From a bacterium (GTDB lineage Bacteria > Armatimonadota > Zipacnadia > Zipacnadales > UBA11051), in assembly GCA_030604405.1 (NCBI GenBank), contig JAUVVY010000002.1, positions 124,001-188,000 of the forward strand: a stretch of 64,000 nt of DNA, written 5' to 3'. Made by a program: the position numbers and the translations under genes. Shown here piece after piece: positions 20,361 through 64,000 of the stretch. Under the pieces are notes generated by a model. That model was given only the letters and a program-made list of their open reading frames with translations, did no database searches and was not told the origin of the DNA. Each line of letters opens with the position of its first letter. Within the stretch, counting starts at the first letter, position 1.

Positions 20361-20440
20361 GCCCTGAGCGAAGTCGAAGGGAGCAACGTCGCAGGGCAGC
20401 CCGAGACTTATCCTCGCGTAGCTCGGGCTTCCAGCCCGAG
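20361..20440. repeat. Composite dispersed repeat
   Basis: Contains CCCTGAGCGAAGTCGAAGGG followed, after a spacer, by the palindromic unit CGCGTAGCTCGGGCTTCCAGCCCGAG in two pieces (20415-20440). The first half resembles the element at 15796-15830. Both halves can fold into short hairpins. Confidence 0.75.
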
Positions 20441-44205: not shown

Positions 44206-44493
44206 ATGGCGTCCATAATCGGCCTGTTGACTCTCGACATTTACATTCCTGACGCCGTCACACTCAAGGACAAAAGACGCGTTGTCAAAAGCCTGATCGA
44301 GCGCCTCTCCAACCGCTATAATATCTCCGTGGCCGAGATCGAGCAGCTTGACAAGCCCTCACGCGCGACACTGGCTATTGCCTATGTTGCCAACGAACGT
44401 GCTCAGGTGGAGCGCGTGCTCAGCCATATTGAAGCTACGGCCTCTCGCGAGCGGCAAGCAGTTGTCGAGGGCAGCTTTTCAGAATTCTTCTAG
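44206..44493 (+). CDS. ylxP: DUF503 protein YlxP
   Basis: 95 residues, ATG at 44206, 5 bases after infB. DUF503 pattern: IGLLTLDIYIPDAVTLKDKRR at the start (LKxKRxxxxS) and RYNISVAEIEQLDKPSRATLA. Small alpha/beta protein of the infB-rbfA neighbourhood, thought to act in ribosome assembly or RNA handling. Confidence 0.92.
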   Translation: MASIIGLLTLDIYIPDAVTLKDKRRVVKSLIERLSNRYNISVAEIEQLDKPSRATLAIAYVANERAQVERVLSHIEATASRERQAVVEGSFSEFF

Positions 44494-44518
44494 CCAGGAT
44501 CCCAAGCTCTGGCCCCGC

Positions 44519-44550
44519 CGCGTAGCTCGGGCTTCCAGCCCGAGTCCGCC
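44519..44550. repeat. Palindromic repeat between ylxP and rbfA
   Basis: CGCGTAGCTCGGGCTTCCAG and then cccgagtccgcc is a full copy of the dispersed family, nearly the same as 29205-29236. It sits 33 bases before the best rbfA start and supplies the last stop codon-bearing frame upstream (TGA at 44575). Confidence 0.85.
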
Positions 44551-44583
44551 AGGCGACGAGCAAGGCCATTCGGGTGAATCAGC

Positions 44584-44979
44584 ATCAGACAGCAAACGCA
44601 AAGACAGCGCCGTGTTGCAAAGCTCATCCAGGAAATCGTCGCTGACGTCATTCGCGACGAAGTTGACGACCCCGCCATCGGTTTCCTGACTATCACCGAT
44701 GTAGAAGTCTCGGTGGACATGCGCAATGCCACTCTGTATTACTCGGTGCTGGGGTCGGCCGAGCAGCTTGAGGAAACCACCAAGGGCCTGTTGCGTGCCC
44801 GCAAGTTCATAAATCGCCAGCTTGGCGAGCGCCTCGCAATGAAATACACACCGACGTTGCGCTTTGTTCTCGACGAGACTGCCGAGCGCGCCCAGCGCAT
44901 TGAGAGGGTACTCCGGGATATTGATGGGCAACAACGACAAGAGCCAGACTCCGAAGACCCCGACAGCGAAGTCCGGTAG
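44584..44979 (+). CDS. rbfA: Ribosome-binding factor A with apparent ATC start
   Basis: About 131 residues. The frame clearly encodes RbfA: RQRRVAKLIQEIVADVIRDE, then DPAIGFLTITDVEVS and DMRNATLYYSVLG. In this frame a TGA at 44575-44577 closes the upstream side, and no ATG, GTG or TTG occurs before the conserved core; the first is GTG at about 44707 inside it. The best start is the ATC at 44584 with GGGTGA at 44572-44577, a 6-base spacing; ATC at 44578 is an alternative. A start-codon change, or a sequencing error, would explain this. RbfA binds the 30S helix 1 region in late assembly and cold adaptation. It overlaps nrnA by 56 bases. Confidence 0.82.
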   Translation: MRQQTQRQRRVAKLIQEIVADVIRDEVDDPAIGFLTITDVEVSVDMRNATLYYSVLGSAEQLEETTKGLLRARKFINRQLGERLAMKYTPTLRFVLDETAERAQRIERVLRDIDGQQRQEPDSEDPDSEVR

Positions 44980-63459: not shown

Positions 63460-64000
63460 ATGCGTGACAAATCGCTGGAGTTCTTCAAAGCCCTCATCCA
63501 TGCTGCCTCGCCATCGGGCTACGAGCAGCCGGCGCAAAACGTCGTGCGGGACTACGCCGCGGAATTCGCCGACGAGGTGCGTACCGACGTGCATGGCAAC
63601 GTCATCGCCGTGCGCAACGCCGACGCCCCGGTCCGCGTGATGTTAGCCGGCCATGTTGACCAGATCGGCCTCATGGTGCAGTATATTGACGATTCCGGAA
63701 TGCTCAACATCGCCGGCATCGGCGGGCATGACCCGAAGGTGCTCGTCGCCCAGCGTGTCGTCGTCCACGCTGCCAAGAAGCCCATCGCGGGCGTTATCGG
63801 CCGCAAGCCGATCCATCTGCTGCCAGCCGAGCAGCGCGCCAAGGAGAAGCTTGAGGTGGCAGACCTGTGGGTGGACATCGGCGCGAAGAACAAAGCCGCC
63901 GCCGAAAAGCTCGTGGCAATCGGCGATCCCATCACCTTCGACCTGCAATACACTCCGCTCTTGCAGGACCTCATTGCCGCGCCGGGCTGCGACGACAAGG
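63460..64000 (+). CDS. M42-family peptidase, 3' end cut by window edge
   Basis: ATG at 63460 with GGAGGA 6 bases upstream; 180 residues visible. LEFFKALIHAASPSGYEQPA, LAGHVDQIGLMVQYI (first-metal His and Asp, with Gln where M42 usually has Glu), VAQRVVVHAAKKPIAGVIG and VADLWVDIGAKNKAAAEKL. The catalytic Glu lies beyond the edge. It is a distant paralogue of the 35844 gene. Confidence 0.88.
   Translation, partial: MRDKSLEFFKALIHAASPSGYEQPAQNVVRDYAAEFADEVRTDVHGNVIAVRNADAPVRVMLAGHVDQIGLMVQYIDDSGMLNIAGIGGHDPKVLVAQRVVVHAAKKPIAGVIGRKPIHLLPAEQRAKEKLEVADLWVDIGAKNKAAAEKLVAIGDPITFDLQYTPLLQDLIAAPGCDDK

Follow-up and report, generated by a model that had tools for sequence, protein, structure and literature searches.

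The window, that is, the whole 64,000-nucleotide stretch of DNA that was analysed, contains a gene for ribosome-binding factor A (rbfA) whose frame, counted from the codon proposed here as its start, comprises 131 codons followed by TAG. The predicted product matches the Pfam family RBFA (PF02033) over the full length of the model (112 bits, cut-off 34.7, positions 1–105 of 105) and also matches solved RbfA chains with E values down to 2.5e-21, which together place it in the RbfA family; no other rbfA is present in the genome. Directly upstream, in the same frame, lies a DUF503 gene, and the spacer between the two genes holds a copy of a dispersed repeat. For comparison with the window's genome (G000), we used a second species of the same uncultured genus (G001; contig JALGTY010000121.1, equivalent to locus L039 and labelled Candidatus Zipacnadia), a third (G002), a fourth (G003), and a fifth genome (G004). 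The features discussed below are as follows.

44206 to 44493, forward strand: DUF503 gene, directly 5′ of the rbfA spacer (PF04456, 94 bits), with ATG at 44206 and stop codon TAG at 44491–44493
44517 to 44548, forward strand: copy of a dispersed palindromic repeat (core GCTCGGGCTTCCAGCCCGAG) that occurs about 40 times in the genome; G001 has this copy, G002 and G003 do not
44572 to 44577, forward strand: Shine-Dalgarno-like GGGTGA that can base-pair with the 16S 3′ end GGATCACCTCCTTTCT (about −9.5 kcal/mol for the duplex)
44575 to 44577, forward strand: in-frame TGA, read from the sequence, that shuts the rbfA frame on its 5′ side and overlaps the Shine-Dalgarno sequence
44584 to 44586, forward strand: ATC proposed as the start of rbfA, 6 nucleotides past GGTGA, at the same place in G001 and G002 and replaced by GTG in G003
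44584 to 44979, forward strand: rbfA (PF02033, model 1–105; best E value against solved RbfA chains 2.5e-21)

The region where translation of rbfA should begin is devoid of the usual start codons. Specifically, positions 44570–44602 read TCGGGTGA ATC AGC ATC AGA CAG CAA ACG CAA A, and the reading continues beyond 44602 (ACG CAA AGA CAG CGC CGT GTT); between the TGA at 44575 and the conserved core, the rbfA frame contains no ATG, GTG, TTG or CTG, and the next in-frame GTG, at 44713, lies deep within the rbfA domain. Because position 1 of the PF02033 model falls on codon 44602 and the ATC at 44584 lies opposite residue 1 of the solved Haemophilus influenzae and Escherichia coli RbfA chains, the start must be located at about 44584–44596. 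The N-terminus that would result from initiation at this ATC, predicted to be Met-RQQTQRQRRVAKLIQE, is equal in length to those of the two solved proteins. Furthermore, the codon lies 6 nucleotides after GGGTGA, a functional spacing, and this hexamer is complementary to the 16S tail of the same organism (GGATCACCTCCTTTCT, taken from locus L086). By itself, GGTGA-N6-ATH is no rarer in the window than expected by chance (five occurrences found, 3.8 expected); the case for the ATC start rests on exclusion and conservation rather than on the motif.

It is also worth considering whether the lack of a usual start is a peculiarity of this gene or of the genome. A scan of the window based on codon usage yielded 54 coding regions besides rbfA, and the calls flagged as lacking a start, together with several more, were inspected. 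All of the calls inspected have a plausible ATG, GTG or TTG, except one that is cut by the end of the window (63643–63996). Hence, rbfA is the sole clear start-less gene among the genes called in the 64 kb, and a genome-wide lack of starts was rejected. Likewise, the anticodon of the initiator tRNA is CAU, as is normal, which rules out an altered anticodon. In the gene for this tRNA (L082, 1498–1574, minus strand), the anticodon stem has A29-U41 where the first of its three G-C pairs would be, and C1 stands opposite U72; both features recur in the other members of the family with a complete copy and could bear on the fidelity of initiation.

It is informative to examine the site across the genus. 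In G001, positions 44547 to 44597 are letter-identical to the window, including the TGA and both ATC codons, and again no usual start is present, although the surrounding 3.4 kb is only about 86% identical at the DNA level (about 14% different). In G002, whose RbfA is 62% identical at the protein level, the corresponding stretch reads GCGGGTGA GCA GAG ATC AGA GAA CCC AGC CAG AGA CAG CGC, so that GGGTGA-N6-ATC recurs at the same codon, once more without a usual start. Thus, no usual start compatible with the conserved N-terminus exists in any of these three genomes, and all three have ATC at the aligned codon with an identical GGTGA-N6 spacing. The first-pass annotation had claimed that rbfA lacks an ATG, GTG or TTG start and that the ATC at 44584, with its well-placed GGGTGA, is used instead; both claims stand, and the alignment with relatives that it had called for supplies the conservation. 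Two other candidate codons were rejected as starts since they are not conserved among the three genomes: the ATC at 44578 is GCA in G002 and leaves no spacer after the Shine-Dalgarno sequence, and the ACG at 44596 is replaced by ACC in G001 and by AGC in G002. Among the candidates, only the ATC at 44584 is common to all three.

The genus is not uniform in this respect. G003 reads GGAGGTGA GCA GTG GTG AAG ATG CAC, with GTG at the aligned start codon, so AUC is not universal in the genus. A three-protein tree leaves the direction of the change between GTG and ATC undecided (support 53–65). The G004 assembly contains neither rbfA nor the DUF503 gene, presumably owing to an assembly gap. Beyond the genus, 54 other rbfA genes were read, from the other members of the class that possess the gene and from outgroups, and none of them lacks a usual start, which is ATG in nearly all and lies where it would be expected. 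Within the first 12 rbfA codons counted from the ATC, the changes at first, second and third codon positions number 2, 3 and 7 between the window and G002, and 3, 3 and 9 between the window and G003; that is, an excess of third-position changes in the rbfA frame is found directly after the ATC in both comparisons. As a separate observation, the interval 44430–44630, which covers the end of the DUF503 gene, the repeat-bearing spacer and the beginning of rbfA, is 97–98% identical to G001, as compared with about 86% over the surrounding 3.4 kb, a pattern that may reflect either selection on the leader or local exchange.

The closest parallel to this arrangement is found in infC, the gene for initiation factor IF3, which is present in the same genome. 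There (G000:C57 at about 9520; locus L051 at about 1246), the start region reads TTGAGGTGA TGT GAG ATA GCG and has no ATG, GTG or TTG at the start. The infC start is ATA in seven of seven genomes of the family (our own and six relatives), six bases past GGTGA, as in the layout GAGGTGA TGT GAG ATA. Across the order, ATA predominates, several genomes (G011, G012, G034 and G036 among them) have ATC, and G024 has ATT. In most of these infC genes, ATH follows GGTGA or GAGTGA after six bases, and the TGA contained in either motif is as a rule a stop in the infC frame. The exceptions are G009 and G014, with TTG or CTG, and one genus (G008, G018, G021, G026 and G032) in which the start is ambiguous because an additional ATG or GTG lies two codons 5′ of the ATA, directly on the Shine-Dalgarno sequence. 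Given that the ATA start of infC in the family is laid out in the same way, rbfA of the window carries an infC-type initiation site, consisting of GGTGA, an in-frame TGA, six bases and the start, and the likeness to infC suggested by the first-pass annotation is borne out. The pairing with the 16S tail differs in strength, with a predicted duplex of about −9.5 kcal/mol for rbfA of the window and −10.9 for that of G002, versus −11.8 to −14.5 kcal/mol for infC of the family. A practical corollary for the order is that, with infC starting at ATA, ATC or ATT almost throughout, automatic annotation will misplace the infC start.

These comparisons suggest that the AUC at 44584 is very probably a real, inherited, weak start codon of rbfA. 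Translation would begin six bases after GGGUGA, with the usual initiator tRNA (anticodon CAU) decoding the AUC. IF3 makes complexes on non-canonical codons less stable and keeps down translation from the non-canonical starts of infC and sigR (PMC5472188), so it should also repress this rbfA. By this analogy, IF3 control of rbfA is plausible and rbfA is probably an IF3-sensitive gene with a non-canonical start; on balance we expect its start to respond to IF3 repression, as do those of infC and Streptomyces sigR. IF3 would then destabilise initiation complexes on the rbfA AUC as it does on infC, such that the output of RbfA would drop when free IF3 is plentiful and climb when IF3 is short or its proofreading relaxed. 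Mature but not immature 30S subunits are reported to release RbfA through IF3 (Sharma and Woodson 2020, via PMC9032327; also PMC13246957), and since in E. coli IF3 thus drives RbfA off mature 30S subunits, we propose that the supply of this assembly factor may be tied to the supply of the factor that removes it. We hesitate to go much further. A physiological feedback loop between IF3 and RbfA strikes us as less likely than not, and only tentatively do we suggest that IF3 proofreading might have a second, trans-acting target in ribosome biogenesis, with RbfA supply reading out the level of IF3 or the quality of proofreading by the 30S subunit. If assembly defects subvert the scrutiny of the start signal by IF3, as the title of Sharma and Anand 2019 states (cited in PMC13246957), and if this is valid here, one could speculate about homeostatic feedback, whereby 30S subunits that are badly matured and proofread poorly would cause more RbfA to be translated.

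Alternative accounts of how rbfA could be expressed are harder to reconcile with the comparisons. Ribosomes might initiate at the GTG at 44574, within GGGTGA, and then shift by +1 into the rbfA frame. This GTG is indeed found one base out of frame in all four species; however, it is there because GGTGA contains GTG, and the Shine-Dalgarno sequence of infC holds the same triplet. The frame of this GTG stops after 23 codons in the window, the peptides that it would encode are not conserved (VNQHQTANAK, VSRDQRTQPE and VSSGEDAQPA), the species share no recognised shift motif, and the codon-position bias right after the ATC favours the rbfA frame. We regard the frameshift as very unlikely, and the suggestion in the first-pass annotation that it might refute the ATC start fails with it. 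Very unlikely, too, is the idea, also raised there, that insertion of the dispersed repeat removed a normal start. A copy of the repeat ends about 30 nucleotides upstream of rbfA in both G000 and G001, but G002 has the ATC in the same layout without the repeat, so the repeat did not cause the loss. Read-through or extension from the DUF503 gene, which lies upstream in the same frame, would dispense with new initiation altogether but would have to pass three in-frame stops (TAG at 44491, TAG at 44524 and TGA at 44575), and stops separate the two genes in G002 as well, which makes this extremely unlikely. Finally, every assembly used is a draft, and an error of sequencing or assembly, or decay of the gene, could in principle explain the missing start. 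The probability of this is close to nil: three separate assemblies agree, and the gene is otherwise intact, conserved and the only rbfA in the genome. A base-call error that restores ATG is excluded because G001 is identical at the site and G002 independently lacks a usual start.

The main rival to an IF3 loop accepts the ATC as the start and regards it merely as a weak codon that is tolerated, through drift or a low need for RbfA, with passive repression by IF3 and no regulatory role. The moderate Shine-Dalgarno sequence, the GTG used by G003 and the limitation of the trait to one genus are consistent with this. Against it, ATC has been kept across 62% protein identity although ATG is one base change away, and 44430–44630 is the best conserved part of the locus. 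We consider such passive tolerance a real possibility, if somewhat short of an even chance. What may also count against initiation at AUC under IF3 control is that the rbfA site is predicted to bind the 16S tail less tightly than the infC sites do, while genes with proven non-canonical starts tend to have extended Shine-Dalgarno sequences.

It is useful to set the proposed AUC start of rbfA beside the non-canonical starts already described. The infC start is ATT in E. coli and ATC in Streptomyces (PMC5472188), and AUA in Staphylococcus aureus (PMC13009471). The autoregulated infC genes (AUU, AUC or AUA) resemble rbfA in their ATH start and, within the family, in the layout of GGTGA with its in-frame TGA and six bases. 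In contrast, the rbfA product is an assembly factor rather than IF3, meaning that any control would act in trans, and rbfA has the weaker Shine-Dalgarno sequence and a trait confined to one genus. In E. coli, a weak ATH start (AUU) is likewise reported to limit a second gene on the chromosome, pcnB (Binns and Masters 2002, as cited in PMC13009471), although pcnB is unrelated to rbfA and its codon is different. Streptomyces sigR is likewise a gene other than infC with a non-canonical start conserved in a genus (PMC5472188); it differs in using GTC, in having an extensive AGGAGGTG site and in that its repression by IF3 has been proven experimentally. S. aureus ccpN (AUA) and cvfC1 (AUU) are further examples of conserved, Shine-Dalgarno-directed non-canonical starts beyond infC (PMC13009471), but they are other genes, with extended Shine-Dalgarno sequences and proof from ribosome profiling. 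A search of the open-access literature, judged in part by titles and abstracts, turned up no description of a non-canonical start for rbfA. Few bacterial genes are known to start outside AUG, GUG and UUG, and gene finders are blind to such starts; a conserved AUC on rbfA would put a ribosome-assembly gene on this short list. Furthermore, a direct link between IF3 and RbfA, two factors that already compete on the E. coli 30S subunit, becomes testable by a simple reporter.

The leader of rbfA was also considered as a possible structured regulatory RNA. This was rejected, as an Rfam search of the leader gave no match and its predicted fold is no more stable than those of shuffled sequences (z −0.94). 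Copies of the dispersed repeat occur in the window at 20421, 29211, 44525 and 63391, with a consensus of about TCGCGTGGCTCGGGCTTCCAGCCCGAGTCC, and at 44537–44577 in this non-significant predicted fold the 3′ arm of the copy upstream of rbfA (GCCCGAGU) is able to base-pair with AUUCGGGU, a stretch that takes in some of the rbfA Shine-Dalgarno sequence.
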